Positions 1 to 20,026 of a stretch of DNA of 35,009 nt are shown here, piece after piece (positions within the stretch are counted from its first letter, which is position 1; the number at the start of each line of letters is the position of its first letter). The DNA lies in the NCBI RefSeq assembly GCF_000167195.1, contig NZ_AADV02000020.1, positions 1 through 35,009 on the forward strand. The letters are read 5' to 3'. A program made the position numbers and the translations under genes. The stretch is from Crocosphaera watsonii WH 8501. GTDB taxonomy: Bacteria; Cyanobacteriota; Cyanobacteriia; Cyanobacteriales; Microcystaceae. The notes beneath the pieces were generated by a model that worked only from the letters and a program-made list of their open reading frames with translations, made no database searches and was not told where the DNA came from.

Positions 1-1
1 G

Positions 2-703
2 AGAAGGATTTCTGGAATCCGAGAAGTAGGACCGTTCCGGCGAAATGTTTATCGGAAGAAGTCCATTCAACTGCCGAGAAAATGGTTTTCGAGCGACCAA
101 CAGGCAAGAGCGAAATCCAATGTGATGGTCGTAAATTATCGGTCAAGTAACTTCAATGCGAGAAAGATTAGAGCAGAACAATTGGATGTAGGTCGGGACT
201 TTATCCGAGGAGTAGATGTTAGTTGGGAGGAATTCTTTAAAACTAGCGACCGCCCAGAAGTAGAAAATTATGGTCGTCAAAATGCACTAGAATTTGAATG
301 GTTATCTGATAATAATTTGAGAACTCGTTCCTATCGACAAGCTATTACAAAACATCCTCAAACTGGAGAAATGGTATTTTTTAACCAGATTCAGTTACAT
401 CACATCTCATTTTTAGAGCCATCTATTCAAGAATCACTATTATCCTTATTCGGTGAAGAAAATCTACCGCGTAATGTTTATTATGGAGATGGTTCCCCCA
501 TAGAAAAGTCGGTTATTGACGAAATAACAGAAGTTTATCAAAGGTTAAAGGTGACTTTTTCTTGGAATAAAGGAGATATTTTAATGCTTGATAATATGTT
601 AACGGTTCATAGTCGAAATCCCTATATTGGCTATCGAAAAATCCTAGTAGCGATGGGGGAAATCAATAATAAGAATAATATAAAAGGAGGACATAATGTA
701 TAA
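2..703 (+). pseudogene. 5'-damaged Fe(II)/2-oxoglutarate (TauD/SyrP-like) hydroxylase, partial at window edge
   Basis: The frame is open from the window edge to the TAA at 701-703. From about nt 205 onward the protein matches the C-terminal half of the intact hydroxylase at 10395-11432, sharing ITKHP, LPRNVYYGDGS and the distal iron-ligand region (TVHSRNPY; His163 and Arg172 counting from a GTG at 122). The paralogue's N-terminal part, including the first iron ligands (HNE), is missing. In its place, nt 1 to about 205 encode an unrelated, GC-richer segment that I do not recognise. The GTG at 122 is therefore probably not a genuine start. Without the HxE pair the remnant should be inactive. 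It lies 161 nt upstream of NRPS-1, where an Asp beta-hydroxylase is expected. Alternatives are a rearranged allele or an assembly misjoin at the left edge. Confidence 0.75.
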
Positions 704-864: not shown

Positions 865-3800
865 ATGACAGAATTAACAACTAATGAAGGTTTTAGACTA
901 TCACCACAACAAAGACGTTTGTGGTCGTTACAAAAACAATCTTCTCCCTGTAAAGTTCAATGTACAATTCGACTAACAGGTGATATAAATCTCTCCTGTT
1001 TAAAGTCAGCAGTAGGCACGATCATTAAAAAACATGAAGTTTTAAGGACGAAATTTTATACTCAACCTGAACTAAAATGGCCTCTACAGGTGATTAGTGA
1101 TTCTGATTATTTTTCTTGGTTTGATATTGATTTAAGTAATAAAAAGACTGAAGAGCAAAAAGAATATATAGAAAAAATATTGCTAACGGAAAGACAAAGT
1201 AATACCGATGTTATTGTTAGTGCTTATTTATTCAATTTAGGTAAAGATGAATATTTACTGTTATTTAGTTTTCTAGGAATGAATGCTGATACAATCACTT
1301 TAAATAATTTAGTATCAGAAATTGGTCAAGATTATGTCGCTAATCTTTCTAAAAATGATTACGTGACTGAGGAGAATGATGTACTTCAATACCTGCAATT
1401 TTCTGAATGGCAAAACCAATTACTAGAAGATGAAGAAGAACCAGATAATCAAGCAGGTAAACAGTATTGGAGTGAGCAAAGTTCTGAACCCTTAAAAACT
1501 TTAGTCGCCCCTTATGAATATAAAAATGAGAAAAATAAATCTGAATTAGATTATAATTTTGTTAACAAGGAAATTCCTTCATCTATTGTTAACAGTCTTC
1601 TTCAAGTAGCTGATAAGCATGAAGCATCAATTGAGAGCATTTTATTAACAGCTTGGTCTTTACTAATACGAAGAATTACTAATCAAGAAGAGTTGATTAT
1701 TGGGACAGCTTTTCATGGAAGGGAATATGAAGAGGTAGAAAACTGTTTCGGGTTGTTGGCTAAATATTTACCTATTAATATTTCTCTACAATCTCAAGAT
1801 AAATTAACAGAGATTGTTGCTCAGGTACAAGAAGCGATCGCCAATAATATTGAGTGGCAAGATTACTTTAATTATTTTGAAAATTTAGAGGATACTAATT
1901 ATCCAGTGGGATTTGAATTTGCTGAACTACCGCATAAATATATTGTTGCTGATGTTAGTTTTGCAGTTGAACAATATTATGTTTGTTTAGAGTCATTTGA
2001 TATTAGTCTTAATTGTTATCAGGATCAAGATAAAATTTTGACTAACTTTTTATATAATTCTAATTATTATGAAAGGAAACAAGTAGAATACTTAGCAGAA
2101 CAGTTTTTAACATTATTAGAAAGTCTCATTAATAATTCTGAACAAACAATATCACAGTTTAAAATTATCAGTGATCGCCAGGAAGAACAGTTATTAGTTA
2201 AATTTAATCAAACGACTAAACAACATCATCAAGGAACCTTATGTCTTCATGAACGATTTACGCAGCAAGCAAAACAAACACCAGATAATGTTGCTGTTGT
2301 ATTCGAGGAGGAAAAATTAACGTATAGAGAACTCAATAATCAAGCAGAGAAATTAGCTGATTCCCTACAACAGTTAGGAGTGGAACCAAATGTATTAGTG
2401 GGAATTTTTCTAGATAGGTCTCATCTTTCCATTGTTGCCATTTTAGCAGTTTTCAAAGCAGGAGGGGCTTATTTACCATTAGATTCAAAAATGCCAGAAG
2501 AACGTTTGCATGGGATTTTAGAAGATGCTCAAGTACAAGTTTTATTAACAGAAGAAAAACTAGCTTCTCGTTTACCATCAGAGACAGCACAAGTATTATG
2601 TATAGATTCTCAACCCACCACTGTTGAGAAGTTCCAAAATAGCGATCAAAATCTTACGCCTAACGATCTAGCTTATGTTATTTACACCTCTGGTTCCACT
2701 GGTAAACCCAAAGGAGTTGCAGTAGAACATCGTCAACTATGTAACTATTTTAATAGTATTATTGAGCGACTAGACTTACCCGAAACAGCTAGTTTTGCCA
2801 CGCTTTCCACTTTCTCCGCTGATTTAGGCAACACAATTATCTTTTCTGCTTTGTGTACAGGGGGATGTTTACACATTATCGCTCAAGAAAGGATTACCAA
2901 TCCCATAACCTTAGCAGAGTATTTTCGTAACCATCCCATCGACTGTTTTAAAATCGTTCCGTCTCATTTGAACGCACTTTTAACAACAGTTAATGCTGAA
3001 GATATCTTACCCTCTAAATTACTGATTTTAGGGGGTGAATCTCTGAGTTGGTCTTTGGTCAAACAAATTCAGGAACTACAACCAAATTGTCGTATTTTGA
3101 ATCATTATGGACCAACAGAAACAACCATTGGTGTACTAACCTTTAAAGTCCCACAAGAAGAGCATCAATACGCAGCAACAGTGCCTATTGGTCGTCCCCT
3201 TGATAATACCCAGATATATTTACTTGATGAGTATTTACAACCGGTTCCCCTGTTAACACCTGGAGAAATTTATATTGGTGGGGCCAACCTGTCGCGAGGT
3301 TATTACAACCGTCCTGAACTAACCGAAGAACGCTTTATTATCAATCCTTTTGATCAATCAACTCGCTTGTATAAAACCGGTGATGTGGGACGATATCTGC
3401 CAGATGGTAGTATTGAATTTTTAGGAAGAAGCGATCGCCAAGTCAAGATTCGTGGTTTCCGTATAGAGTTAGGAGAAATCGAAGCTGTTCTATCTCAACA
3501 TCCATCTGTCAAACAAGCGGTAGTTACTGTACCAAAAGATGAAAAAGGTAATCAGCGATTAGTTGCTTATGTGGTGTTAGGTTCTCATAACACTGACCAC
3601 TTACAAGACTTTATGAGGATAAGACTACCTCAATATATGGTGCCTCATCGGTTTGTCACCCTCAAAACCATACCTGTTACTGCCAACGGAAAAATAGACT
3701 ATAAGGCATTACCAGCACCAAAAGAGGAAAATGATTATGTTGCGCCAAATACTCCCCAAGAAGAAACATTAGCAACAATTTGGGCTGAAATTCTCGGGTT

Positions 3801-5421
3801 AGAAAGAGTTAGTATTGATGATAACTTTTTCCAGCTAGGGGGTGATTCAATTATAAGTATTCAGGTCATCTCCAAAGCAAATCAGATGGGGTTGCAACTC
3901 ACTCCGCAACAGTTGTTTGAGTATCCAACAATTGCACAGTTGGCAGCAGTGGCCAAAACCAGGGAATCTATCAAAACTGAAACAGGTCCAGTAATTGGAG
4001 AAGCACCCCTGACCCCCATACAACATTGGTTTTTTGCTCAAGAATTGGCTGATTCCCACCACTGGAATCAATCAGTATTTCTAGAGATAAAGCAAGGTTT
4101 AGATTTTCAGGTATTGGAGAAAGTTGTCAAACAATTGCTTGAACATCATGATGTACTACGACAGCATTTTGAAGAAACAGAACAAGGTTGGCAACAAGTT
4201 AATGTTCCACCTGATGAGAGAGTACCAGTTTCAAGAATCGATTTATCAGGGGAATTAGCAACTAACCAAGAAGAGACAATAGCATCTATAGAAGCGGAGT
4301 TACAAGCTAGTCTTAATTTATCTAGTGGACCATTAATTAAAGTTGCTTATTTCGATCTAGGCCAAGACACTCCAGGGAAACTATTGATAATCATTCACCA
4401 TTTAGTGGTTGATGGTGTATCTTGGAGGGTTTTATTAGAAGATATGCAAACCGCTTATCAGCAACTTAGCCAAGGGGAAGAAGAAATTAATCTACCAATA
4501 AAAACCACATCCTTCAAACGATGGGCGGAAAAATTAAACGAATTTGCTGATTCTTCAGATGTGCTTAAGGAACTAGAATACTGGCAGAGTCAAACCCCAA
4601 ACCCCATTATTTCTTTACCCACGGATTTTTCCTTTTCCCAAGAGCAAACAGCTAATACATTAGCTTCTGCAAGAACCATATCAGTTTTACTAACTCCTCA
4701 AGAAACTCAAGACTTACTCCAAGAAGTTCCTAAAGCTTATAATACTCAAATTAATGATGTATTATTGACGGCATTAGTTCAGTCTTACTGTCAATGGACG
4801 AAAGGTAATTCACTTTACTTAACCTTGGAAGGCCATGGACGAGAAGACATATTTTCCGATGTCAACTTATCGCGCACAATAGGTTGGTTTACCACTCACT
4901 TTCCTGTTCTTCTCAGCTTAGAAAGTGCTTCATCTCCTGGAGATGCTCTTAAAACAATTAAAGAACAATTGCGGAGAATTCCTAAAAATGGCATGAACTA
5001 TGGCCTTTTAAAATACATTAACAAAAATAGTCCTTTTAAAAGCACACCTCAACCTGAATTAAAATTCAACTATTTGGGTCAGTTTAACCAGGTATTTCAA
5101 GAAACTTCTATTTTTCAACCGACTTCCAGAAAGACTAAGCTAGACCGTAGTCAGCGAGGGTCTCGTAGCTATTTACTAGAGATTGACGGTTTAGTAGGTA
5201 ATGGACAGTTCAAATTTAACTGGACTTATAGTCAGGATATTCATGACTCCAATACCATTGAAAGTTTCGCAGAGAACTTTACCCAAGCACTACGTAACAT
5301 AATTGCCCATTGCCAAGATCCAGAAGTAGGAGGTTATACTCCTTCAGACTTTCCAGAAGCAGAAGTAAGTCAAACAGAACTTGACCAACTACTTGCCAAA
5401 ATTGGTCAAATAGATGGGTAA
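865..5421 (+). CDS. NRPS-1: interface(C-like)-A(Asp)-T-E
   Basis: A 1518-residue NRPS acting in the cytoplasm. Domains: a condensation-superfamily domain (about 1-440), adenylation (about 460-950), carrier (phosphopantetheine Ser995 in GGDS) and epimerisation (about 1065-1500). The first domain lacks the HHxxxDG histidines: the site reads LGMNADT, residues 137-143, keeping only Asp142. This matches the non-condensing interface domains that recruit Asp beta-hydroxylases. Adenylation pocket residues aligned to GrsA give D-L-T-K-I-G-H-I-G plus the invariant Lys, one conservative change from the known Asp code. The E domain has His1178/His1179, Asp1183 and EGHGRE (Glu1322), so the residue should become D. 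Predicted role: load L-Asp, beta-hydroxylate it on the carrier, and epimerise it. An upstream condensation domain should lie left of the window. The start at 865 follows a poly-A stretch with no clear Shine-Dalgarno. Confidence 0.93.
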   Translation: MTELTTNEGFRLSPQQRRLWSLQKQSSPCKVQCTIRLTGDINLSCLKSAVGTIIKKHEVLRTKFYTQPELKWPLQVISDSDYFSWFDIDLSNKKTEEQKEYIEKILLTERQSNTDVIVSAYLFNLGKDEYLLLFSFLGMNADTITLNNLVSEIGQDYVANLSKNDYVTEENDVLQYLQFSEWQNQLLEDEEEPDNQAGKQYWSEQSSEPLKTLVAPYEYKNEKNKSELDYNFVNKEIPSSIVNSLLQVADKHEASIESILLTAWSLLIRRITNQEELIIGTAFHGREYEEVENCFGLLAKYLPINISLQSQDKLTEIVAQVQEAIANNIEWQDYFNYFENLEDTNYPVGFEFAELPHKYIVADVSFAVEQYYVCLESFDISLNCYQDQDKILTNFLYNSNYYERKQVEYLAEQFLTLLESLINNSEQTISQFKIISDRQEEQLLVKFNQTTKQHHQGTLCLHERFTQQAKQTPDNVAVVFEEEKLTYRELNNQAEKLADSLQQLGVEPNVLVGIFLDRSHLSIVAILAVFKAGGAYLPLDSKMPEERLHGILEDAQVQVLLTEEKLASRLPSETAQVLCIDSQPTTVEKFQNSDQNLTPNDLAYVIYTSGSTGKPKGVAVEHRQLCNYFNSIIERLDLPETASFATLSTFSADLGNTIIFSALCTGGCLHIIAQERITNPITLAEYFRNHPIDCFKIVPSHLNALLTTVNAEDILPSKLLILGGESLSWSLVKQIQELQPNCRILNHYGPTETTIGVLTFKVPQEEHQYAATVPIGRPLDNTQIYLLDEYLQPVPLLTPGEIYIGGANLSRGYYNRPELTEERFIINPFDQSTRLYKTGDVGRYLPDGSIEFLGRSDRQVKIRGFRIELGEIEAVLSQHPSVKQAVVTVPKDEKGNQRLVAYVVLGSHNTDHLQDFMRIRLPQYMVPHRFVTLKTIPVTANGKIDYKALPAPKEENDYVAPNTPQEETLATIWAEILGLERVSIDDNFFQLGGDSIISIQVISKANQMGLQLTPQQLFEYPTIAQLAAVAKTRESIKTETGPVIGEAPLTPIQHWFFAQELADSHHWNQSVFLEIKQGLDFQVLEKVVKQLLEHHDVLRQHFEETEQGWQQVNVPPDERVPVSRIDLSGELATNQEETIASIEAELQASLNLSSGPLIKVAYFDLGQDTPGKLLIIIHHLVVDGVSWRVLLEDMQTAYQQLSQGEEEINLPIKTTSFKRWAEKLNEFADSSDVLKELEYWQSQTPNPIISLPTDFSFSQEQTANTLASARTISVLLTPQETQDLLQEVPKAYNTQINDVLLTALVQSYCQWTKGNSLYLTLEGHGREDIFSDVNLSRTIGWFTTHFPVLLSLESASSPGDALKTIKEQLRRIPKNGMNYGLLKYINKNSPFKSTPQPELKFNYLGQFNQVFQETSIFQPTSRKTKLDRSQRGSRSYLLEIDGLVGNGQFKFNWTYSQDIHDSNTIESFAENFTQALRNIIAHCQDPEVGGYTPSDFPEAEVSQTELDQLLAKIGQIDG

Positions 5422-5435
5422 TAAATGTTGATATT

Positions 5436-5460
5436 CTCATTGCCTAATAAAGGCAGTGAG
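5436..5460 (+). other. Intergenic hairpin between NRPS-1 and NRPS-2
   Basis: CTCATTGCCT and AGGCAGTGAG form a 10-bp stem with one G-T pair around a 5-nt AATAA loop. No T-run follows, so it is more likely an mRNA-stabilising or processing hairpin than an intrinsic terminator. The 92-nt gap and shared strand suggest NRPS-1 and NRPS-2 are co-transcribed. Confidence 0.5.
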
Positions 5461-5513
5461 TCCTAACTCCTACAAACTTAATTTTAACCTTCCCTAACCT
5501 TGAGATTTCCCAG

Positions 5514-8500
5514 ATGAAAACAGACAACATCCAAGACATATACCAACTTTCGCCAGCACAGCAAGGATTACTTTTTCATACTCTTTATGCCCCTGAATCA
5601 ACTGCATATTGCGATCAGTATAGAATAGGCTTTAAAGGTGATTTTAATACTTCAAATTTTGAGAAAGCATGGCAAATAACAACCGAACGTCACGCCGCTT
5701 TTCGTACCTGTTTTTTCTGGGAAGAAGTCAAAGAACCAGTGCAAGTAGTGTATCGAAAAGTGACACTAGAAATAGAGAATATTGACTGGAGAGACATTGA
5801 TGCAGAAACGCAAGAAGAGAAATTAGATATATTTTTAAAAGCTGATCAACGTCGCAGTTATGAACTTTCAAAACCGCCTTTAATGCGTCTAGTGTTAATT
5901 CAAACAGATGAAGATGGTTATCAATTTATTTGGAGTAACCATCATATTCTCTTTGATGGTTGGTCGCGATTTATATTGTTTAAAGAAGTTTTAGAAATAT
6001 ACCAAGCATTAAATAATGGGAACCCAATAAAACTCCAAACCCCTTTCCCTTACCGAAAATATATTGCTTGGTTGCGAGAGCAAAATTTATCTGAAGCAGA
6101 AGCTTTCTGGCGACAGGAACTTCAAGGCGTAACTGCATCCACACCCTTAGTGGTAGATAAATTAACCAGTAGTACATCCGAGACGGAAGAATATATCGAG
6201 GAGGATGTTGTCTTATCCCTAGAAAACACAGAGAAACTTAAGGCTCTGGCACAACAAAATCAATTAACCATCAATACTCTGATCCAAGGGGTTTGGGCTT
6301 TATTGTTGAACCGTTATAGTGGGGACGATAATGTTATTTTTGGGGCAACTACTTCTGGTCGTCCCATCAACTTACCAGGGGTAGAATCAGCCGTTGGTTT
6401 ATTTATTAATAGTTTGCCAGTACGGGCAAAGGTTAATCAAGACGATTTACTTATACCCTGGTTGAAAACACTTCAAACCGAACAAGCAAAGGCTCGTCAA
6501 TATGAGTGGTGTCCGATGGTACAAATTCAAGGATGGAGTGAAATACCAAAAGGAATACCATTATTTAATAGTTTGGTTATTTTTGAAAATTACCCCGTAG
6601 ATACCGCGTTGAGTCAAAGAAACGAAAACTTACAAATTGCTGATTTTAAAGTTATTAATCGAACAAATTATCCTTTAACTATTCTCGTTAGCTGTAAGAA
6701 ACAGTTATCCTTCAAAGTTATCTATGATCTAAGCTCTTTTGCTCCTGCTAATATTAAGCGGATGTTGGGACATTTGCAGACATTATTATCAGCAATGCTT
6801 GCTAACCCACAACAATGTTTGTCAGATTTACCTTTACTAACAGAAACTGAGCGACATCAATTACTTTATGAGTGGAATAATACAAAAGTTGAGTATTCCC
6901 AAGATCAATGTATCCATCAATTATTTGAAGCTCAGGCAGAAAAAACACCCCATGCAGTAGCAGTAGAGTTTGAAGACCAAAAATTAACTTATCAGCAACT
7001 CAATACAAAAGCTAATCAACTCGCCCATTATTTGCGTTCTTTAGGAGTCAAACCAGAGATATTAGTCGGAATTTGTGTGGAACGCTCTTTAGAGATGGTG
7101 ATTGGACTCTTAGCCATCCTCAAAGCAGGAGGAGCTTATGTTCCTATCGAGCCAACTTACCCAACTGAGCGTATTCAGTATTTGCTCGAAGATTCCAAGG
7201 TTGCGATTTTATTGACTCAAAACCATTTAACAACAACCTTACCTGAGTATCAAGGGCGTATTATTTGTTTAGATACAAAGTCTGAACTGATGTCAAATGG
7301 GGGTAAACAGAACCTTGTTAGTGAATTATCAATCGATAATTTAATCTACATCATTTATACTTCAGGCTCCACAGGAAAACCAAAGGGAACCATGAACACT
7401 CATCAAGGAGTTGTTAATCGTTTACTTTGGATGCAGGATACTTATCAATTAACTACAAGAGATCGAGTCTTGCAAAAAACCCCCTTTAGTTTTGATGTAT
7501 CTGCTTGGGAGTTCTGGTGGCCATTGATGACGGGAGCTTGTTTAGTTGTTGCTCAACCAGAAGGACATAAAGACCCCACCTATCTTATTAAGCTGATCAA
7601 AGAACAACAAATAACAATCCTTCATTTCGTTCCTTCAATGTTGCAAATTTTTCTTGAAGAAGCTGATGAGGAATCATGTAGTAGTTTGAGAGAAGTATTT
7701 TCTAGCGGAGAAGCACTGACAGTTGCATTGGAAGAAAAGTTCTTTAGCCGTCTGAAAGCAGAATTACACAATCTTTATGGACCAACAGAAGCAGCTATTG
7801 ATGTCACCTTCTGGCAGTGCCAAGCCAATAGTCAACGCTCAAGTGTACCCATTGGTCGTCCTATAGCTAATACTCAGACATACATTTTAGATGTTAATTT
7901 GCAGCCTGTTCCAGTGGGTGTACCAGGAGAATTGTATTTAGGAGGTGTACAATTAGCACGGGGTTATCTTAATCGTCCAGAATTAACGGCAGAAAGATTT
8001 ATTGAGAATCCATTTAGGGAAAACTTTGGCTATTCGCGTTTATACAAGACAGGAGATTTAGTTTGTTATCTACCCGATGGCAATATTGAGTATTTAGGAA
8101 GATTAGATAACCAAGTTAAAATACGAGGTCTGCGTATTGAATTAGGAGAAATTGAAGCACAAATCGCTCAATACGAAACAGTTAAAGAAGCCGTAGTGAT
8201 AGCCAGAGAGGAGATAGCAGGGGATAAAAGATTAGTCGCTTATCTTGTTCCTCAAGAAGAGTCAACAGTTAACTCCAGTAAGTTGAGGAAATTTTTAAGA
8301 GAAAAACTGCCTAACTATATGATTCCCAGTGCTTTTGTAACATTAGAAGAATTACCTCTAACACCCAATGGCAAGATTGATCGTAAAGCCTTACCTGATG
8401 ATATTGGAACACAAATATCATCAGATGAGATAGTGCTTCCCTCAACACCTATTGAGAACTTATTAGCAGGTATTTGGGCTGAAATATTGGGGATAGAAAC

Positions 8501-10133
8501 AGTAGGGATTAATAATAACTTCTTTGAATTAGGAGGACATTCCTTAATTGCTACTCGTGTAATTTCTCAAATTCGACAAGTATTTAAAGTAGATATTCCT
8601 ATTCGTTATTTATTTGAAAAACCCACTATTACCCAATTAGCAGAAGAAATTGAGAAAGCAATTAAGTTAGATACCCCTATCGAAGTAACCAGTATTAAAC
8701 GAGTATCTCGTGAACAAGAATTACCCCTATCCTATGCCCAACAGAGACTATGGTTTCTTACTCAATTAGACCCTGATAGTCCTGCGTATAATCTTCATTT
8801 TTGTCTTCGTCTCTCAGGTCCACTTAACATAGACGCACTGTCAGCAAGCATTAATGAAATTGTGAAACGACATGAAGTATTACGGACGAATTTTACTGCT
8901 GTTGAGGGTCAACCCTTTCAAGTCATAAATCCTGAGTCTAATCTCCCCATTCCAATGATCGATTTAAGGGATTTTACTCCATTGGAACAGGAAAAGGAGA
9001 TATATCACTTAGCTAAAAAAGATGTATCACAACCGTTTGATTTAGAGAACTCTCCTTTATTACGAGTAACTTTGCTGAAATTAAATACAGAAGATCATGT
9101 CATATTGCTAACAATGCACCATATCATATCAGATGCTTGGTCTATGGGAGTATTTGTTGAGGAAATAGCCCAATTGTATCCATCATTTTCCGCAGGAAAA
9201 ACCCCCACACTTGCAGAATTGCCGATCCAGTATGCAGATTTTGCTGTTTGGCAACGCCAATGGTTACAGGGAGAAGTTTTACAAACCCAGCTTGATTACT
9301 GGAAGCAACAATTAGGAGATACCTATACTCCGTTAACATTTCCTCAGTCATCTTCTGGTTCAAAGGTTAAAACAAATAAGGGGGCAAAACAATCCTTTAT
9401 GTTGTCAAAAGACCTAACCGAAGCTATCAATTTATTGTGTCGTCAAGAAGGGGTAACCTTATATATGACCCTGCTGAGTGTCTTCCAAGTGTTACTCCAT
9501 TATTTTACAGGTGCCGAGGACATTCGTGTTGGTTCACCAATCGCTAATCGTAATCGAGTTGAAATTGAAAAATTGATTGGATTTTTTATTAATACTTTGG
9601 TTTTACGTATTGACTTATCTGGGAATCCTAGTTTTCGAGAACTATTAGTACGAGCGCGCAAAGTTACCTTAGACGCTTATGCTAATCAAGATGTCCCTTT
9701 TGAAAAATTAGTAGAGGAACTACAACCAGAAAGAAATCTCCATGATAATCCCCTATATCATGCCTGGTTCGTTCTCCAAAATACACCAACACCGAAGGTA
9801 GAGTTATCTGATTTAACCCTCACATCCTTTGACATTGAAAAGGATGCGGTGCGACACGATCTACTTTTGGGAATGTCGGAAACTTCAGAAGGGCTTGGTG
9901 GCGAATTTAAGTATAAAACTGACTTGTTTCCTGAGGCGACTATTGCTCAATTCATTGAACATTTAAAAGTAGTTTTACAACAGATTGTAGAGCAACCAAA
10001 TACTACTATTCAGGAAATTTCTACCATGCTAGTTAAAAAAGATGAACAACAACAACAAATACAAAAACAAAAACTTCAAGCAAAAGAAATTGACAAATTA
10101 AAAACAATCAGGAGAAGAACTATTCGGAGCTAA
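5514..10133 (+). CDS. NRPS-2: C-A(Ser)-T-C
   Basis: A 1539-residue NRPS. The first C domain has an intact HHILFDG (His143-Gly149) and follows an E-domain protein, so it probably accepts a D-configured donor. The adenylation domain (about 465-955) has pocket residues D-V-W-H-F-S-L-I-D plus Lys, a classical Ser code. The carrier serine is Ser1010 (FFELGGHSL). A second full C domain (from about 1069) carries HHIISDA (His1202-Ala1208), with Ala replacing the usual Gly. No adenylation domain follows it: the protein ends in a Gln-rich coiled segment and a basic tail, KLKTIRRRTIRS. The terminal C domain therefore most likely serves in trans the Asp module of NRPS-3, whose own C-like domain lacks the catalytic histidines. 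Predicted role: add L-Ser to the D-beta-hydroxy-Asp intermediate and join the chain to the second beta-hydroxy-Asp. Confidence 0.93.
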   Translation: MKTDNIQDIYQLSPAQQGLLFHTLYAPESTAYCDQYRIGFKGDFNTSNFEKAWQITTERHAAFRTCFFWEEVKEPVQVVYRKVTLEIENIDWRDIDAETQEEKLDIFLKADQRRSYELSKPPLMRLVLIQTDEDGYQFIWSNHHILFDGWSRFILFKEVLEIYQALNNGNPIKLQTPFPYRKYIAWLREQNLSEAEAFWRQELQGVTASTPLVVDKLTSSTSETEEYIEEDVVLSLENTEKLKALAQQNQLTINTLIQGVWALLLNRYSGDDNVIFGATTSGRPINLPGVESAVGLFINSLPVRAKVNQDDLLIPWLKTLQTEQAKARQYEWCPMVQIQGWSEIPKGIPLFNSLVIFENYPVDTALSQRNENLQIADFKVINRTNYPLTILVSCKKQLSFKVIYDLSSFAPANIKRMLGHLQTLLSAMLANPQQCLSDLPLLTETERHQLLYEWNNTKVEYSQDQCIHQLFEAQAEKTPHAVAVEFEDQKLTYQQLNTKANQLAHYLRSLGVKPEILVGICVERSLEMVIGLLAILKAGGAYVPIEPTYPTERIQYLLEDSKVAILLTQNHLTTTLPEYQGRIICLDTKSELMSNGGKQNLVSELSIDNLIYIIYTSGSTGKPKGTMNTHQGVVNRLLWMQDTYQLTTRDRVLQKTPFSFDVSAWEFWWPLMTGACLVVAQPEGHKDPTYLIKLIKEQQITILHFVPSMLQIFLEEADEESCSSLREVFSSGEALTVALEEKFFSRLKAELHNLYGPTEAAIDVTFWQCQANSQRSSVPIGRPIANTQTYILDVNLQPVPVGVPGELYLGGVQLARGYLNRPELTAERFIENPFRENFGYSRLYKTGDLVCYLPDGNIEYLGRLDNQVKIRGLRIELGEIEAQIAQYETVKEAVVIAREEIAGDKRLVAYLVPQEESTVNSSKLRKFLREKLPNYMIPSAFVTLEELPLTPNGKIDRKALPDDIGTQISSDEIVLPSTPIENLLAGIWAEILGIETVGINNNFFELGGHSLIATRVISQIRQVFKVDIPIRYLFEKPTITQLAEEIEKAIKLDTPIEVTSIKRVSREQELPLSYAQQRLWFLTQLDPDSPAYNLHFCLRLSGPLNIDALSASINEIVKRHEVLRTNFTAVEGQPFQVINPESNLPIPMIDLRDFTPLEQEKEIYHLAKKDVSQPFDLENSPLLRVTLLKLNTEDHVILLTMHHIISDAWSMGVFVEEIAQLYPSFSAGKTPTLAELPIQYADFAVWQRQWLQGEVLQTQLDYWKQQLGDTYTPLTFPQSSSGSKVKTNKGAKQSFMLSKDLTEAINLLCRQEGVTLYMTLLSVFQVLLHYFTGAEDIRVGSPIANRNRVEIEKLIGFFINTLVLRIDLSGNPSFRELLVRARKVTLDAYANQDVPFEKLVEELQPERNLHDNPLYHAWFVLQNTPTPKVELSDLTLTSFDIEKDAVRHDLLLGMSETSEGLGGEFKYKTDLFPEATIAQFIEHLKVVLQQIVEQPNTTIQEISTMLVKKDEQQQQIQKQKLQAKEIDKLKTIRRRTIRS

Positions 10134-10220
10134 ATCAACTTCAAATCTGAGTTTGGTATTGAGATTTAATCTTTTTTTAATACAATCAGAGTTTTAAAAT
10201 ACCAAAACCCTTACCCCATA

Positions 10221-10347
10221 AGTAGTCGGACATAAATAAACAGCACTGTATTAAGAAATATTAATCAGTCTAAAAACCTTATCTTTTACCTGTTCGCCGT
10301 TCCCTGTTCCCTTGCCTGACAATTAACTTTAAATATGTCTGACTACT
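10221..10347. mobile_element. MITE-like element inside the NRPS cluster
   Basis: The ends AGTAGTCGGACATA and TATGTCTGACTACT are near-perfect inverted repeats, each flanked by TA, about 127 bp in all. This fits a non-autonomous element with TA target duplication (IS630/mariner-like style). There is no coding capacity. It fills the gap between NRPS-2 and the hydroxylase. Confidence 0.65.
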
Positions 10348-10394
10348 TATCTAACAAAACTAAACAATGAAACCACTATTGAGAAAATTTAACA

Positions 10395-11432
10395 ATGAAC
10401 AAAGTAGATTTTAAACAAAAGCTCAAGAAATTAGGGACAGTTAGGCGTAAATCTATCAGTGTGTCCCAAGAGGATTTAATTCGGACATCTTATTTACAAT
10501 CAGATGATTCTCTTCCATTAGTTGTTCAACCCAAAGTTGCTGCTTTAAACTTGGCAACTTGGAGTGAGCATAATCGAGTTTTGATTGAGAATAAATTATC
10601 AAAACAGGGAGCAATTCTTTTTCGAGATTTTCAGTTAAAAGATGTAATTCAATTCCAAAAATTTATTCAAGAAATTTCTGAAAACATACTGGAATATTCT
10701 TATCGATCAACACCCCGTAGTAATGTTTCAGACAAGATTTATACTTCTACTGAATATCCCGCTAAGCATCATATTCTCCTCCATAATGAGATGTCTTATT
10801 CTCGTAAATGGCCGATAAAAATCGCCTTTTATTGTATCAAGAAAGCTAACGAAGGTGGAGAAACTCCTATTGCTGATAGTCGTAAAGTTTTTGCCCGTAT
10901 CAACACAAAAATTAAAGAAAAATTTATGGATAAAAAGGTAATGTATGTGCGAAATTACGGGGCAGGATTAGATTTAACCTGGCAAAACGCATTTAATACT
11001 AACGACAAATCAGAAGTTGAAACCTATTGTCATCAAGCAGGAATTGAATTAGAATGGCGTGATAAGGATAATTCTGATGTTGACCTAAGAACTCGTCAAG
11101 TTTGTCAAGTCATTACCAAACATCCTAAAACATTAGAAACAGTTTGGTTTAATCAGGCTCACTTATTCCATATTTCCAATATAGAACCAACAGTTCGTGA
11201 ACAACTTTTGGCAAATTTTCAAGAAGAAGATTTACCCCGCAATGTTTATTATGGGGATGGGTCTAAGATTGAGAATTCTATATTAGAGGAGATTCGAGAA
11301 ATCTATCAACAAGAATCAATCATATTTCCTTGGCAAGAGGGCGATGTATTGTTGCTAGATAATTTGCTTTATGCTCACGGAAGAAGACCATTTAAAGGTT
11401 CACGTCGTGTGGTTGTAGGAATGGCTAACTAG
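10395..11432 (+). CDS. Fe(II)/2-oxoglutarate-dependent Asp beta-hydroxylase (SyrP/TauD family)
   Basis: A 345-residue TauD/TfdA-fold enzyme. The iron triad is visible: His130 and Glu132 in LHNEMSYS, and His328 in YAHGRRPF. Arg337 or Arg338 is placed to bind the 2-oxoglutarate carboxylate. SyrP-type relatives hydroxylate carrier-bound Asp at C-beta in siderophores and syringomycin-like peptides. Here it lies directly upstream of NRPS-3, which has an Asp adenylation domain behind a histidine-less C-like (interface) domain, exactly the expected partnership. Since the copy upstream of NRPS-1 is truncated, this enzyme may have to serve both Asp modules. The N-terminus (KKLGTVRRKSISVS) resembles the C-terminal tail of NRPS-2. 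Hydroxylation of Asp is inferred from context; the family assignment is firm. Confidence 0.9.
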   Translation: MNKVDFKQKLKKLGTVRRKSISVSQEDLIRTSYLQSDDSLPLVVQPKVAALNLATWSEHNRVLIENKLSKQGAILFRDFQLKDVIQFQKFIQEISENILEYSYRSTPRSNVSDKIYTSTEYPAKHHILLHNEMSYSRKWPIKIAFYCIKKANEGGETPIADSRKVFARINTKIKEKFMDKKVMYVRNYGAGLDLTWQNAFNTNDKSEVETYCHQAGIELEWRDKDNSDVDLRTRQVCQVITKHPKTLETVWFNQAHLFHISNIEPTVREQLLANFQEEDLPRNVYYGDGSKIENSILEEIREIYQQESIIFPWQEGDVLLLDNLLYAHGRRPFKGSRRVVVGMAN

Positions 11433-11488
11433 AACAATTATTCCTCACATCTTGCACCTGACCTTGAATAATCGATTTTCACTTAAAT

Positions 11489-11504
11489 GATAAGGTATTT
11501 TATC
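11489..11504. promoter_or_regulatory. Possible regulatory dyad upstream of NRPS-3
   Basis: GATAA and TTATC are separated by six bases, about 100 nt before the NRPS-3 start. The half-sites resemble those of iron-regulator (Fur) boxes, but the spacing is not a canonical match and the region is AT-rich. Low confidence. Confidence 0.2.
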
Positions 11505-11605
11505 GGTTTTCAAACTTTTTAAAATCGTTTTATCGATACTCAAAAAAGCTTGGTGTAAGATGTCAGTATCAGAAAATTTATTCTTAATTTTACCAGGTAT
11601 TTATT

Positions 11606-14600
11606 ATGGAAAACGAACAACTACAAGGTTTTAGATTATCACCTCAACAAAATCATATATGGCTTTCCCAACAAAATGAGAATATATTATCTCATCGTGT
11701 TCAATGTGCGGTAACAATTACGGGAGATTTAGATGTTGAGGTATTAGAAACTGCTTTACAAAACATTGTGGATCAATACGAAGTTTTCCGAACTCGTTTT
11801 TCCTGTCTTCCTGGAATGACAGTCCCTTTACAAATAATAGCTGACAACGAAAAAGTTTGTATTAACAAATTAAATTTAGTTGATTTGTCTCAGGAAGAGC
11901 AAGAAGATATAGTTGAATTAACATTTACTAAATTAAAAGAAAAGTCTTTTCAATTTGAGGAGAGAAATCCTTTACACATAGAACTGTTAACTTTATCAAC
12001 AACAAAGCATACATTAATATTGAGTTTATCGGCCTTAATTGCAGATAGTTTTTCTCTCAGGAATTTGGTAGAAAAAATTAGTTGTTTCTATGAAGCTTGT
12101 TTGAGAAATCAAGATATTATTGATGAACCCATTCACTATGTAGATATTGCTGAATGGCAAAATGACCTTTTAGAGTCACCAGAGTCTGAATTTGGGAAAG
12201 AATATTGGCTCAAACAAAACATAAACTTAAGTGATAACTTGTCACCTTGGTTTGAAAATAAACAAGGTCTGACTTCACCACTTAAAACTATTGATTTTAC
12301 TTCCAATATCAATAGTGAACTACTTCAGAAAATTGAATTATTAACTGAGATATATAATGTTAATCAATCTAACGTTTTCCTAGCTTGTTGGCTAATCTTA
12401 CTTGGAAGAATTAGCAACCAATCTGATATTTTTATTGGGATAGGTAGCGATGGGAGGAAATATGAGCAACTAATGGAAGTATTAGGACCTTTAGCTAAAT
12501 ATCTACCCCTTTCATATCAATTAGAATCAGATTCAAAATTTAGCCAAGTCTTAAAAAATATCAATGAATTAGTTGAAAATTCCTGCGAAACGCAAGAATA
12601 TTTTGAGTGGGCAAAAACAGAAAATACTGAACTCTTTTGTCCAGTTGTTTTTGAATTTGAAGAATTTCCAGAAGAATATACTACATCAAACCTATCTTTT
12701 TCTTTTGAGCAGCAATATTCTTGCATTGATAATTTCAAACTGAAATTGTCTTGTTTGCGGAAAAAAGAAACTCTAATTACCAAATTTTATTTTGATTCTA
12801 GTCGATATAATGCTGAAGATATCAAAACTGTATCAGAACAGTTTCAAAATTTATTGCAAAGTGCAGTTAAAAATCCCGAAATTCTCATTGGCAAGCTAGA
12901 TATTTTGAACCCTAACCAAAAACAAAAATTCTTAGTTGAGTTCAATGATACAGAGAAACAATACCAACCAGAGCAATGTATTCACAAACTATTTGAGGAA
13001 CAAGTAAAACGTAAACCTGATAAGGTTGCTGTTGTATTTGAAGAACAGCAATTAACTTACAACGAATTAAATGTAAAGGCTAATCAATTAGCAAATTATT
13101 TACAGAATCAAGGTATTAAGCCAGATAGTTTAGTAGGAGTTTATTTAGAGCGATCGCTCTTATTTGTTATTGCGATACTCGCTATCCTTAAAGCAGGTGG
13201 AGCTTATCTTCCCCTAGATCCGGCACTGCCAGCAGAAAGTGTAGTCTATCGAATAGAAGATGCTAAAACACCCATAATTATCACACAAGAATCCTTACTG
13301 AAAAAAATTTCTGACCTAGAAAAACAGACCATATCTATCGACAAAGACTGGGAAATAATTGCAAATCAGAAAACTAGTCCCCCAGAAAATGATGTTACCA
13401 GTAAAGATTTAGCTTACGTGCTGTTTACATCTGGTTCCACAGGTAAACCTAAAGGTGTTGCTGTTGAGCATCGGCAACTTTTTAACTACATAAATGCTAT
13501 AGAAGATAGATTAAATCTTTCAGTTTGTAGTCAATTTGCTTTAGTTTCTACCTTTGCCACCGATCTAGGTAATACCGTTATTTTTCCGGCTTTATGTGGT
13601 GGTGGATCTCTTCATATACTTTCATCGGAAATTACTACTAACCCCGAAACCTTTGCCGAATATTGTCATCATAATTCCATCGATTGTCTGAAGATTGTCC
13701 CCTCTCACCTAAATGCTTTGTTAACCGCTTCTCATCCTGAAATAGTATTACCAAAAAAACGATTAATTGTTGGTGGTGAAGCTTGTTCTTGGCAATTAAT
13801 TGAAAGAATTAAAACATTAGCCCCTCAATGTTCTATTTTTAATCATTACGGGCCAACAGAGACCACTATCGGAGTCTTAACCTATCCAGTTAATCTTCAG
13901 CAAACTATTAACCATGCTAAAACTGTACCTATTGGTCGTCCCATTGCCAACACCCAAATTTATGTTTTAGATTCCTATTTACAACCGGTGCCTATCGGTG
14001 TACCAGGAGAATTATATATTGGGGGCGCAGGAGTAACTAGAGGTTATCTTGAAAGACCGAAACTTACCAAGGAAAGATTTATTGTTAATCTTTTTGAAGA
14101 CTTAGAGCAAGTAGTTCCTCATCAACCTGAGTTAGATATTAATAAATCCAGAGATAACTTGTCAAAATCAGAAGTATTCAAGCCTGATAATCTGCTTAAA
14201 AAAGTCCAAAATTATAACTCCGAATTTGTAACTTCTAACTCGAAAATTCAAAACTCTAACTCTGAACTTGTAACTTCTAACTCCGAAGTTCAAACTGCCA
14301 ACTTAGGTAGTCAAAGTCTGTATAAGACAGGTGACTTAGTCCGCTACTTACCAGACGGCAATATAGAGTTTATTGGACGAATTGATAACCAAGTTAAAAT
14401 CAGAGGTTATCGTATCGAACTAGGAGAAATTGAGGCAACACTGAGACAACACAATGGTGTTAGGGAATCTGTCGTACTATCTCATGAGGAAGAATCAGGG
14501 AATAAGTATTTGGTAGCTTATGTCGTTCCTGAAAAGCAATTTACCCTGACGACGGCTGAGTTACAAGGGTTTTTACAAGATAAATTACCATCCTATATGG

Positions 14601-17587
14601 TTCCCCCAACCTTCATTTATCTCAACGCTTTGCCACTTTTGCCCAGTGGAAAGGTAAACCGCAGGGAATTACCAGCACCAGATAGCAGAGCTAATTTGAC
14701 AGGAAATTACGTGGCACCTCGTACAGCTAATGAGAAAAAACTAGCTGAGATTTGGGCAAAAATGCTTCAACTCGAACAGGTGGGAATTTATAATAACTTT
14801 TTTGAGTTGGGAGGAGATTCCATTCTCAGTATGCAGATTATCGCCAAAGCTAACCAAGCAGGGCTACAATTAACACCGAGACAATTTTTTGAATACCAAA
14901 CCATTGCTGAATTAGCAGCAGTGGCAGCTACTAATAAAAAGATCGAAGCAGAACAAGGATTAGTCAATGGTTTAGCACCTCTTACTCCCATTCAACACTG
15001 GTTCTTTGAAGAGAATTTTATTGAGAAGCATCACTGGAATCAATCAGTTTTCCTCGAAGTGCGAGAAAGAATTAACCCCGATTTGCTAACAGAAGTGTTA
15101 AAAGAATTACTTAAGCATCATGATGGCCTGCGCTTACGCTATTCTTTTGAGGAAACTGGTTGGCAGCAAACTTATGCTGACTTTGATGAAACAGTGCCAT
15201 TGACTTGTTTCGATTTCTCAAACTTATCTAAGTCTGAGCAACAATCAGCGATTACCACTAAGGCCACAAAATTGCAGAGCAGTTTAAATCTAACTGAAGG
15301 GCCTTTACTACAAGTTGCTTTATTTGACTTAGGAAAAACTCAGTGCCAACATCTACTAATTATTGTTCACCATTTGGTGGTTGATGGGTTATCTTGGCGT
15401 ATTTTGCTCGAAGATTTACAAATAACGTATGGGCAAGTTAGCCAAGGGGGAGCTATCGAATTGCCCCTGAAAACAACCTCATTTAAACATTGGGCGCAAC
15501 GATTACCAGAATATGTCCAGTCTCAATTATTACCACAAGAATTAGATTACTGGTTAACCCAGATTCCCAGTGAAACTGTCCCTTTGCCTGTCGATTTTCC
15601 TGATGGGAATAACACTCTTGCTTTGGCTGAAACAGTATCAATGACTTTGAGTCAAGAAGACACACAAGCTTTATTAAAAGAAGTTTCAGGTACTTATGAA
15701 ACTCAAATTAATGAGGTCTTATTAACAGCTTTGGTGCAAGCTGTTGAACCCTGGATTGCTTCTCGTTCACTATGTATTAATTTAGAAGGTTATGGAAGGG
15801 AAGAAATCTTTGATGATGTCGACTTATCCCGTACTTTAGGCTGGTTCAGCACTATTTTTCCAGTGTTTCTCGATCTTAAAAAGACAACAGACATACAAAC
15901 TGCTCTAGAGTATGTTAAAACTCAACTGCGGAGTATTCCCAATCATGGTATAGGTTATGGTTTGTTGCGTTATCTGAGTGAGGAACAAGGGGCATTTTTG
16001 CGAGAGCGAATGCCAAATCCAGAAATTAGATTTAATTATTTAGGTCAATCTGACCAAGTATTCGATGATTCCGCTTTATTTTCCCCTGCTAAAGAATTTA
16101 CCGGCGCAAAAAGAAGTTTACTGTCTCATCGTAACTATTTACTGGATATTAATGGAATTGTTGCAGGGGGCCAATTAGGAATAAGTTGGACCTATAGCAA
16201 AGAAATTCATAAGAGAGTTACTGTGGAAGCGATCGCTAACAGATATATGGAGAAGCTCAAAGAAATTATTACTTATTGTCAGTCTAGATCCCCTCAAAAA
16301 GATTCCTTAGCATCCAATAGAATCTTATCTACTCCTCAAACAAAAAATCCTTTAACAACTGGGAAAATTACCCTAGATGTTTTAAATGCTGAAGCAGTAT
16401 TAGATCCTAAGATCCAGCCTGAAACCTCTTTTAAGTTTGTGGAGGAACCATTTAATATATTTTTAACGGGGGCAACAGGGTTTGTCGGAGTTTTCTTACT
16501 CTATGAACTCCTACAACAAACCGATGCTACGGTTTATTGCTTAATCCGAGCTACTGATATTCAATCAGGAATGAATAAGCTGAAGCATCATCTTGAATCT
16601 AATCTTCTATGGCACGAATCCTTTAGTAAGCGTATTGTTCCAGTGATTGGAGATTTATCTAAACCGCTTTTAGGTCTTGGTGAGAAACAGTTTCGCATGA
16701 TGACTAATAAAGTTGATGTAATTTATCATAATGCGGCTTCAATTAATCTTGTTCATTCATACACTGCTTTGAAAGCATCTAATGTTTTAGGGACTCAAGA
16801 AATCCTCAGATTAGCCAGTCAAGTAAAAGTTAAACCCGTTAATTATATTTCAACTTTGAGCGTTATATCTTCTCGGGATCATGCTCAGGTGAAAGAAATT
16901 CAACAACTGTATAACTTTGATCATCAAGGAATTCCCTCTGGTGGTTATGCTCAAACTAAGTGGGTTTCAGAAAAGTTAATTACTATTGCACAAAGTCGAG
17001 GAATTCCTGTTTCTATTTATAGATTAGGACGAGTATCAGGCCATAGCAAAACTGGTGTCTGTAACAAAGATGATCGTTTGTATAGAATGATTGTCGGTTT
17101 TATACAGATGGGTTGTGTACCAAATTCCAACACTGTTGTTGATATGACCCCTGTAGACTACATCACCAAAGCTTTAATTTATTTATCGAGGAGAGAACAA
17201 TCCCTGAGTAAAATCTTTCATTTATCGAATCATCAGCCCATTAACTCTTTTCAGCTTTTTGACTGGATACGTGAGTTTGGTTACTCAATTGAGCAAATAT
17301 CTTTTGAGCAGTGGCAAACAAAATTAATGAGTGACTCCGAAAATGGTTTAGATAATCCACTGTATCCTTTAATTCCCTTTTTTGCTGGGAAGAGTGGCAA
17401 AGCTGCTCTTAAACAAGCGTCCTCCGAACAAACTGCCCACAGAAAATCATCCAACTCTCGATGTCAGAACACAGCCGATGGACTAGCAGAATCTTCCATT
17501 GTCTGCCCTCCAGCAGATGCAAAATTATTGAACACCTACTTTTCTTATTTAATTAAAAATGGTTTTTTGAATCCTCCCTCTCGTTAA
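11606..17587 (+). CDS. NRPS-3: interface(C-like)-A(Asp)-T-E-thioester reductase
   Basis: A 1993-residue terminal NRPS. The N-terminal C-like domain (about 1-440) again lacks HHxxxDG histidines: the site is SALIADS (142-148), with Asp147 kept. The adenylation pocket reads D-L-T-K-I-G-H-I-G plus Lys (Asp). The A domain carries an extra segment of about 70 residues (about 831-904) rich in NSE/TSNS repeats before the YKTGD motif. Carrier Ser1072; E domain (about 1125-1560) with His1255/His1256, Asp1260 and EGYGRE (Glu1394, Tyr1396 replacing the usual His). The C-terminal reductase (from about 1615) has the nucleotide-binding TGATGFVG (1621-1628) and catalytic Tyr1781-x3-Lys1785. Predicted role: install the second beta-hydroxy-Asp, epimerise it, and release the chain reductively as an aldehyde or alcohol rather than an acid or macrocycle. 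Confidence 0.93.
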   Translation: MENEQLQGFRLSPQQNHIWLSQQNENILSHRVQCAVTITGDLDVEVLETALQNIVDQYEVFRTRFSCLPGMTVPLQIIADNEKVCINKLNLVDLSQEEQEDIVELTFTKLKEKSFQFEERNPLHIELLTLSTTKHTLILSLSALIADSFSLRNLVEKISCFYEACLRNQDIIDEPIHYVDIAEWQNDLLESPESEFGKEYWLKQNINLSDNLSPWFENKQGLTSPLKTIDFTSNINSELLQKIELLTEIYNVNQSNVFLACWLILLGRISNQSDIFIGIGSDGRKYEQLMEVLGPLAKYLPLSYQLESDSKFSQVLKNINELVENSCETQEYFEWAKTENTELFCPVVFEFEEFPEEYTTSNLSFSFEQQYSCIDNFKLKLSCLRKKETLITKFYFDSSRYNAEDIKTVSEQFQNLLQSAVKNPEILIGKLDILNPNQKQKFLVEFNDTEKQYQPEQCIHKLFEEQVKRKPDKVAVVFEEQQLTYNELNVKANQLANYLQNQGIKPDSLVGVYLERSLLFVIAILAILKAGGAYLPLDPALPAESVVYRIEDAKTPIIITQESLLKKISDLEKQTISIDKDWEIIANQKTSPPENDVTSKDLAYVLFTSGSTGKPKGVAVEHRQLFNYINAIEDRLNLSVCSQFALVSTFATDLGNTVIFPALCGGGSLHILSSEITTNPETFAEYCHHNSIDCLKIVPSHLNALLTASHPEIVLPKKRLIVGGEACSWQLIERIKTLAPQCSIFNHYGPTETTIGVLTYPVNLQQTINHAKTVPIGRPIANTQIYVLDSYLQPVPIGVPGELYIGGAGVTRGYLERPKLTKERFIVNLFEDLEQVVPHQPELDINKSRDNLSKSEVFKPDNLLKKVQNYNSEFVTSNSKIQNSNSELVTSNSEVQTANLGSQSLYKTGDLVRYLPDGNIEFIGRIDNQVKIRGYRIELGEIEATLRQHNGVRESVVLSHEEESGNKYLVAYVVPEKQFTLTTAELQGFLQDKLPSYMVPPTFIYLNALPLLPSGKVNRRELPAPDSRANLTGNYVAPRTANEKKLAEIWAKMLQLEQVGIYNNFFELGGDSILSMQIIAKANQAGLQLTPRQFFEYQTIAELAAVAATNKKIEAEQGLVNGLAPLTPIQHWFFEENFIEKHHWNQSVFLEVRERINPDLLTEVLKELLKHHDGLRLRYSFEETGWQQTYADFDETVPLTCFDFSNLSKSEQQSAITTKATKLQSSLNLTEGPLLQVALFDLGKTQCQHLLIIVHHLVVDGLSWRILLEDLQITYGQVSQGGAIELPLKTTSFKHWAQRLPEYVQSQLLPQELDYWLTQIPSETVPLPVDFPDGNNTLALAETVSMTLSQEDTQALLKEVSGTYETQINEVLLTALVQAVEPWIASRSLCINLEGYGREEIFDDVDLSRTLGWFSTIFPVFLDLKKTTDIQTALEYVKTQLRSIPNHGIGYGLLRYLSEEQGAFLRERMPNPEIRFNYLGQSDQVFDDSALFSPAKEFTGAKRSLLSHRNYLLDINGIVAGGQLGISWTYSKEIHKRVTVEAIANRYMEKLKEIITYCQSRSPQKDSLASNRILSTPQTKNPLTTGKITLDVLNAEAVLDPKIQPETSFKFVEEPFNIFLTGATGFVGVFLLYELLQQTDATVYCLIRATDIQSGMNKLKHHLESNLLWHESFSKRIVPVIGDLSKPLLGLGEKQFRMMTNKVDVIYHNAASINLVHSYTALKASNVLGTQEILRLASQVKVKPVNYISTLSVISSRDHAQVKEIQQLYNFDHQGIPSGGYAQTKWVSEKLITIAQSRGIPVSIYRLGRVSGHSKTGVCNKDDRLYRMIVGFIQMGCVPNSNTVVDMTPVDYITKALIYLSRREQSLSKIFHLSNHQPINSFQLFDWIREFGYSIEQISFEQWQTKLMSDSENGLDNPLYPLIPFFAGKSGKAALKQASSEQTAHRKSSNSRCQNTADGLAESSIVCPPADAKLLNTYFSYLIKNGFLNPPSR
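14100..14318 (+). repeat. In-frame low-complexity repeat insertion in the NRPS-3 adenylation domain
   Basis: DNA here contains repeated units of the type TAACTCCGAA and TTGTAACTTCTAACTC, encoding SEFVTSNS and SELVTSNS. It replaces the few residues that join the PF motif to LYKTGD in NRPS-1. Similar 'aactcctaactccgaa' repeats are common in cyanobacterial intergenic DNA, and one occurs at about 26400-26428 in this window. The reading frame stays open throughout. Confidence 0.7.
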
Positions 17588-19279: not shown

Positions 19280-19318
19280 TAATTAGGGTTTGCTGAATAA
19301 AAGCAAAACCCTAATTAT
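19280..19318. repeat. Palindromic scar at the IS deletion junction
   Basis: AATTAGGGTTTGC and GCAAAACCCTAATT pair, with one bulged A, around a short TGAATAAAA loop. The hairpin core is absent from the intact copy and replaces roughly 0.85 kb of transposase sequence. The GGGTTTGCTGAATAA motif resembles an insertion-sequence end. Confidence 0.65.
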
Positions 19319-20026
19319 TCCGATAATTCTTTGTAATTCGTCTAAGGCTCCATCGGCTGGATCTACATTAGATGAACGAAGTTTAGCAACTAATAAATGA
19401 TGCCCACAGAAAATATATAAAGGAGCATAACATACTCCGTGATAATAACTATTAAAAAATGCCCCTTCTTGATTACCATGTACTTGGTCATCCGTGACAT
19501 CCATATCTAATATAATACTTAAGGGAGGTTTTTTATAAGACTCTAAAAAAAATTCGACAAAAGATTTTTCAATGGCTTCAAAGTTGGGTTCTATTTTATG
19601 ATAACGACTCGTTTTTTGGTCGAGAATAGTCTCAGGACAATATTCCAATCTATTAATTGTACTTTTTCCAGCTAACCATCCCTTTTTATCTTCAAGTTCA
19701 TTAAGCTTTTCTAAAGCGATCTTAAGGGCAGGATCGTGACGTAATTTATCATGGTCATTGACATCTTCATAGCCTAAAATAATTCCATAAAGCCTTTGTG
19801 CTAATAACTCATGAACGGAATGATCTACATAAGATTGATGACGATGATCTTGAAAACAGTTACCAAACTTCTCGGTAATTCCCAGTTTTTTATCCAACTC
19901 AGCTATCCAGACAATCCCCGCATCTGAAGTGATTAGTCCCCCATCAAAATTAGCGATTATTTCTTTTCCTTTCTGTTTACTAGAGTTGATTACTTGACGA
20001 GGGGTTCGGGGATGACTGGGACTCAT
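19316..20026 (-). pseudogene. IS1380-type transposase, N-terminal fragment
   Basis: About 237 residues of an IS1380-family DDE transposase starting MSPSHPRTPRQVIN. It includes the first catalytic acidic segment ILDMDVTDD (Asp174/Asp176) and HGNQEGAFF, and ends after LDELQRIIGIIR. The last codons (VLLLFSKP, to the stop at 19283) come from the palindromic scar. The second Asp and the Glu of the catalytic triad are lost, so it should be inactive. Confidence 0.85.

Follow-up and report, generated by a model that had tools for sequence, protein, structure and literature searches.

We propose that the Crocosphaera watsonii WH 8501 locus described here is probably the downstream half of a lipoheptapeptide synthetase of the cyanochelin class, whose product would most likely be an excreted, photoreactive Fe(III) chelator. 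The window, meaning the whole stretch of 35,009 nucleotides that was analysed, is the start of contig C304 in a genome of 6,238,068 bases and 323 contigs. According to Pfam, NCBIfam and local HMMs, positions 865-17587 are laid out as I-A(Asp)-PCP-E, C-A(Ser)-PCP-C, TauD and I-A(Asp)-PCP-E-TD, and the ORF list of the window gives uninterrupted open frames at 865-5421, 5514-10133, 10395-11432 and 11606-17587, all on the plus strand. An initial annotation had read this region as an assembly line for a β-hydroxyaspartate (OHAsp) metallophore, and its individual claims are taken up below with the results that bear on them.

Domain organisation of the assembly line

The first NRPS gene of the window (865-5421) encodes an interface (I) domain (886-2184), an Asp-type A domain (2245-3714), a PCP (3757-3954) and an epimerisation (E) domain (3991-5397). 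The second (5514-10133) encodes a Ser-type A domain (6912-8396) and a PCP (8451-8651) between two C domains, which we take to be of the DCL type (5529-6863) and the LCL type (8712-10028), and the latter would serve the next OHAsp module. A stand-alone β-hydroxylase of the TauD/SyrP type follows in an open frame (10395-11432; PF02668, 155 bits), in which HxE and a distal His are visible in an alignment with CcsK. The last NRPS gene (11606-17587) combines an interface domain (11624-12925), an Asp-type A domain matched in two blocks (12980-14107 and 14312-14674), a PCP (14729-14926), an E domain (14960-16318) and a TD (16436-17584). The latter carries the motifs TGATGFVG and YAQTK and scores 357.7 bits with the thioester reductase model TIGR01746 (cut-off 213.35), in agreement with the reductive ending first proposed. 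The G+C content of the cluster (36-38%) is the same as that of its flanks.

Both Asp modules are thus accompanied by a TauD hydroxylase, as the initial annotation had stated, and both begin with the histidine-less, C-like domain that it had recognised. With HMMs built from relatives without the window sequences, the two reach 429 and 519 bits against the interface model versus 154 and 161 bits against the C model. The motif HHxxx[DE][GAS] occurs in 0/48 interface, 77/82 C, 39/48 DCL-type C and 34/39 E domains of relatives, as sorted by first-round HMMs whose seeds included the window domains. The absence of HHxxxDG and the profile scores above those for C domains argue for interface-domain identity in both cases. 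HHLVVDG is found in both window E domains, which likewise upholds the earlier reading of one E domain per Asp module.

Between the two blocks of the last A domain lies an Asn/Ser-rich insert of ~70 residues (14108-14311), which coincides with a 21/42-base tandem repeat (14202-14303) and is apparently a repeat element carried in-frame inside the NRPS gene. In several relatives, too, the HMM matches to A domains are split. Downstream of the TD, an aldo/keto reductase gene (17893-19071, plus strand; PF00248, 87 bits) is a possible tailoring gene that may convert an aldehyde to an alcohol. In Nostoc sp. UHCC 0926, a homologue with 58% identity comes directly after the TD module, and none was found in the covered stretches of four other Asp-TD clusters. 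Pieces of DDE_Tnp_1_4 transposases lie on the minus strand at 19283-20026, 28967-29626 and 29703-30452, the last two matching two halves of one transposase family model.

The contig edge and the probable upstream half

The window opens with the second part of a fused TauD hydroxylase (1-703, plus strand), the C-terminal domain of an NRPS on contig C305. The initial annotation had taken one hydroxylase gene (2-703) to be broken. We reject this reading, since the domain is cut by the contig edge: PF02668 positions 14-156 end C305 and positions 161-263 begin C304. Window positions 1-215 can be aligned, through many single-base gaps, to the ~250 bases that end C305; for positions 1-160 the alignment scores 62.5, and 300 shuffles average 17.0 (sd 2.9) and never exceed 29. 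This stretch overlaps C305 and has the many errors that a poor contig end would show, and its single-base deletions relative to C305 are to be read as assembly error rather than as a gene lesion. Elsewhere in the genome, another TauD fragment with an internal TAA was observed (G000:C134:6449-6763).

On C305, positions 17610-37014 form one stop-free frame that encodes a 6.5-kaa NRPS of the order FAAL-ACP, C-A(Phe)-MT-PCP, C-A(Ser)-PCP-E, C-A(Gly)-PCP, C-A(Gly)-PCP and C-TauD. Its first domain scores 641 bits with the cyanochelin B FAAL gene, and the frame has the FAAL-ACP layout of a fatty-acyl start. This NRPS is probably the missing upstream half, contributing (N-Me)Phe, D-Ser, Gly and Gly, with N-methylation suggested by the position of the MT in the Phe module. 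The expectation that an acyl starter and further modules lie beyond the window is therefore borne out by the FAAL and four additional modules, whereas the transport genes expected with them were not found among the flanking ORFs scanned.

Substrates, stereochemistry and predicted product

Pockets were read from an alignment of the seven A domains of the assembly line and six of cyanochelin B, the tenth residue being assumed to be K. The window pockets are, in order, DLTKIGHIG, DVWHFSLID and DLTKIGHIG, and those on C305 are DAWTIAGVC, DVWHFSLID, DILQLGMIW and DILQLGMIW. The same procedure gives DAWTIAAVC (Phe), DILQLGLIW (Gly), DLTKIGHVG (OHAsp4), DVWHFSLID (Ser, in a module that spans the record origin), DLTKIGHVG (OHAsp6) and DILQLGLIW (Gly) for cyanochelin B, in agreement with the residues of its NMR structure as given in PMC12628792. 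The Ser pocket of the window is identical to that of cyanochelin B, and the two Asp pockets and the C305 Phe pocket are each one position off their counterparts, so the initial assignment of Asp, Ser and Asp stands.

As both Asp modules contain an E domain, D configuration is implied at both OHAsp residues. According to a rule cited in PMC12628792, fused hydroxylases set S and stand-alone ones R at the β-carbon; by this rule, 2R,3S (erythro) is predicted for the first OHAsp and 2R,3R (threo) for the second. A D-erythro first residue, arising from a 3S-setting fused hydroxylase followed by epimerisation, would be unusual among siderophores.

In the proposed biosynthesis, the FAAL would activate a fatty acid, to which the C305 protein would add (N-methyl)Phe, D-Ser, Gly and Gly. 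The first window module would then take up Asp, which the fused TauD, possibly positioned by the interface domain, would β-hydroxylate before epimerisation. Ser would be added next, and a second Asp would be hydroxylated by the stand-alone TauD and epimerised in turn. The TD would release the chain as an aldehyde, and either the TD or the adjoining aldo/keto reductase may yield an alcohol. The predicted product is fatty acyl-(NMe)Phe-D-Ser-Gly-Gly-D-OHAsp-Ser-D-OHAsp with reductive release. This formula is concrete enough to be checked and would add a product of a marine unicellular diazotroph to the cyanochelin class. Because reduction at C1 spares the β-hydroxyl and γ-carboxylate of the last residue, both OHAsp units are predicted to remain able to bind Fe(III). 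Together they would supply four of the six Fe(III) donors; a third bidentate group is not predicted.

Hydroxylase phylogeny and related clusters

A tree of 104 hydroxylase rows separates fused and stand-alone enzymes at a branch with support 96/95, the window hydroxylase (10395-11432) falling with CcsK among the stand-alone enzymes and the fused ones grouping with CcsFGH; the split fused hydroxylase (C305/C304) was aligned and kept outside the tree. The sole stand-alone label on the fused side, at the start of locus L020, belongs to a gene truncated by the edge of the locus, and this gene is fused in L125. The window hydroxylase is sister to a Calothrix MAG enzyme (76% identity) and groups with it and with sequences of Cyanocohniella, Tolypothrix and Aliterella, apart from those of the same genus (L079, Cyanothece sp. 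BG0011; L089, Crocosphaera sp. MO_188.B44). We reject inheritance shared with congeners on the grounds of this separate placement and of the different layout that the clusters of G294, G296 and G297 have in the stretches covered; G294 and G297 are listed in the genus of the Crocosphaera genome.

Relatives were surveyed in 39 loci (L024-L062) and eight groups from seven organisms, many of which were truncated by the end of the locus and some of which overlap. The I-A(Asp)-PCP-E-TD end recurs in five other organisms, namely Nostoc UHCC 0926, G197 (spread across two overlapping frames), Pleurocapsales LEGE 06147, Kastovskya adunca and Nostoc foliaceum. The complete OHAsp-Ser-OHAsp-TD core is present in G197, with a first module that lacks E, and in Nostoc foliaceum FACHB-393, with E in both modules. 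Brasilonema UFV-L1 (L061) has the order OHAsp-Ser-OHAsp, and the TD is absent from its stretch, which stops at a contig end. Four genomes (G011, G081, G165 and G091) have an I-A-PCP-E-TD end with the pocket DSALIAEVW, which we take to be His-like. Related assembly lines with this end and pocket lie at L130, L133, L136 and L139, where the residue is perhaps β-hydroxy-His and would be released by reduction.

Uptake genes and the role of the product

The TonB barrel (PF00593) gave no match in three separate searches of the whole Crocosphaera genome, which is rated 99.95% complete, and FecCD (PF01032) has none over the cut-off, its one match reaching 24.9 bits against 26.5. FecCD is a weak criterion, because only 6/11 genomes compared exceed 100 bits, and G011 and G081 have clusters near a TonB gene without such a match. 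The sequence covered extends 17.6 kb upstream and 17.4 kb downstream of the synthetase genes, with scans of 12/18 ORFs of ≥90 aa in C305:1-20000 (the NRPS itself being one of the 18) and 16/18 ORFs of ≥80 aa after window position 17587. Among the flanking ORFs scanned, none matched a siderophore-binding protein, a TonB receptor or FecCD. A siderophore transport cassette beside the cluster was thus not found; an Opp-type permease (C305:7868-8824) and an MlaF/MlaD-like pair look generic. ExbB-type genes are present in the genome. Upstream of C305:17610, the best Fur-box match (13/19) was equalled or bettered in 52% of shuffles, in a scan that was also non-significant on the cyanochelin B promoter and significant on that of Trichormus.

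A hydroxylase match at E ≤ 1e-40 was obtained in 18 of 59 relatives (the Crocosphaera genome among the 18), and a barrel in 24. The barrel occurs in 16/18 genomes with the hydroxylase versus 8/41 without it (Fisher p 7e-7, ignoring shared ancestry), and within the family in 7/9 versus 4/27 (p 0.001, likewise ignoring shared ancestry). The two hydroxylase genomes without a barrel are G129, where the enzyme has an identity of only 37%, and that of Crocosphaera. The siderophore reading is supported by this association, by the domain order, pockets, motifs and hydroxylase kinship given above and by the receptor-linked kin in Nostoc foliaceum, G197 (TonB and FecCD genes upstream) and Nostoc UHCC 0926. 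Against it stand the uptake genes not found, the lack of a convincing Fur box, the existence of OHAsp non-metallophores and the lack of a predicted third bidentate group. As the flanking ORFs scanned hold no siderophore transport gene, and the genome no barrel, no FecCD over the cut-off and one truncated plug ORF, a siderophore function is suggested by kinship and not by the locus itself.

How the host would use such a chelator can be read in several ways. It is a serious possibility, though short of probable, that the producer does not re-import the complex: light would reduce the Fe(III) of the excreted chelate, and FeoB or other reductive routes would take up the freed Fe(II)/Fe'. The missing barrel and FecCD matches fit this account, as does one FeoB_C match over the cut-off, and the cluster-bearing genome G091 also lacks a plug match (plug search only), which speaks against the Crocosphaera host being unique. 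Cyanochelin B is described in PMC12628792 as photolysing within minutes, with UV light ending the iron monopoly. However, a barrel is present in 16/17 other relatives with the hydroxylase family, and FeoB, which is common and proves nothing alone, is missing from 2/5 genomes compared. With iron photoreduced outside the cell and no re-import of the complex, the molecule would be a leaky public good. With no receptor for the OHAsp lipopeptide, it would act outside the cell, dissolving Fe(III) that light then reduces. The full scenario, in which an open-ocean unicellular N2 fixer makes a receptor-free, light-driven, iron-mobilising OHAsp lipopeptide rather than a classic siderophore, and producer and neighbours alike take Fe(II), is at present speculative and rather improbable.

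A decaying siderophore system, in which the synthetase would be a relic with its frames still open after loss of the receptor, appears doubtful. The plug domain (PF07715) has a single match genome-wide, in a 463-aa ORF on C323 (L018, G000:C323:345001-365000, positions 12732-14120) that comprises AMIN and plug and whose frame stops soon after the plug; an unrelated RTX-like repeat follows in another frame. This truncated ORF would suit receptor loss, but it adjoins a different NRPS with Ser- and Cys-like pockets and one that we take to be Ala-like, and we reject it as the cognate receptor. For Crocosphaera watsonii WH8501, a table of Mirus et al. 2009 (PMC2771747) shows one TBDT, marked as incomplete. 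Transposase genes on both flanks of the cluster are also in keeping with decay, and Calteau et al. describe traces of mobile elements around most or all of the WH 8501 clusters (PMC4247773), yet ~35 kb of synthetase frames are open and their motifs intact.

It is unlikely that the product is instead a lipopeptide aldehyde or alcohol with a surface-active or antibiotic role, its OHAsp serving, for example, Ca2+ binding. Other peptides obtain reactive ends through TD release, which together with the siderophore transport genes not found would favour such a role. The OHAsp lipopeptide turnercyclamycin is a non-metallophore according to PMC12971057, but the hydroxylase, interface domain and core of the Crocosphaera line are akin to those of cyanochelin B and of receptor-linked clusters. 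That a receptor is missing from the assembled contigs, or has diverged beyond what the models detect, is quite unlikely despite the 323 contigs and a break that splits the cluster itself, given the flanking sequence covered and a PF00593 model that scores the cyanochelin B and Trichormus receptors at 161 and 232 bits and finds barrels in 10/15 genomes of one comparison, with Crocosphaera among the five without.

We thus retain the excreted, photoreactive chelator as the preferred reading. Its chemistry seems to be that of an ordinary family member, and the interest lies in a host that seems unable to import the product by the usual route. Synthesis is here parted from uptake, and chelator genes without a found receptor offer a natural test of photolytic siderophores as public goods, a question already raised for cyanochelin B.

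Comparison with known systems

Galica et al. (2021), in their work on cyanochelin A, reportedly found 26 further cyanochelin-like clusters, and the Crocosphaera cluster could be among them. Among the matches listed, no title or opening of an abstract mentions an OHAsp peptide of Crocosphaera, a weak negative with most subscription papers outside the coverage. Reitz et al. (2019) are said to have described siderophores with interface domains and fused β-hydroxylases, work that PMC12628792 and PMC12971057 also cite; in these systems a C-TauD fusion is followed by I-A-PCP, as in Crocosphaera. PMC12971057 distinguishes two cyanobacterial classes, CyanoBH_Asp1 and 2.

Among the closest systems is the cluster of Nostoc foliaceum FACHB-393 (L037, L195-L196), which shares the FAAL start and the core C-TauD, I-A(Asp)-PCP-E, C-A(Ser)-PCP-C, TauD, I-A(Asp)-PCP-E-TD. 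Its upstream residues differ, its core NRPS proteins are 50-55% identical to those of Crocosphaera, and TonB-receptor and binding-protein matches adjoin its FAAL gene, unlike at the Crocosphaera cluster. The cluster on plasmid pn1 of Nostoc sp. UHCC 0926 (L020) shares the I-A(Asp)-PCP-E-TD end and the aldo/keto reductase gene after it, but its line is longer, with other residues between the OHAsp units and with TonB and FecCD upstream. To our knowledge, no product has been assigned to either cluster.

Cyanochelin B is given in PMC12628792 as ...Phe-Gly-OHAsp4-Ser5-OHAsp6-ethanolamine7 with reductive release. Its assembly line (Leptolyngbya sp. NIES-3755, AP017310.1) and that of Crocosphaera have in common a FAAL start, upstream Phe and Gly, a fused and then a stand-alone TauD, interface domains, OHAsp-Ser-OHAsp and reductive release, which together with the pockets and hydroxylase kinship justifies the comparison with cyanochelins made at the outset. 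Unlike cyanochelin B, the Crocosphaera line lacks a PKS and a thiazoline module, carries a methyltransferase in the Phe module, has an additional D-Ser and second Gly, and has an E domain in each OHAsp module but not at the core Ser. A further difference is that siderophore transport genes were not found beside the Crocosphaera cluster. The Crocosphaera TD would act directly on OHAsp, whereas that of cyanochelin B follows a final Gly. The suggestion that two OHAsp units around one Ser with a reductive ending might define a new member holds insofar as a further member of the class is concerned; a unique core is rejected, as it is known from cyanochelin B and present in two other genomes. The predicted Crocosphaera product would be a further cyanochelin-class compound, built on a known core and with the reductase placed directly on its last chelating residue.
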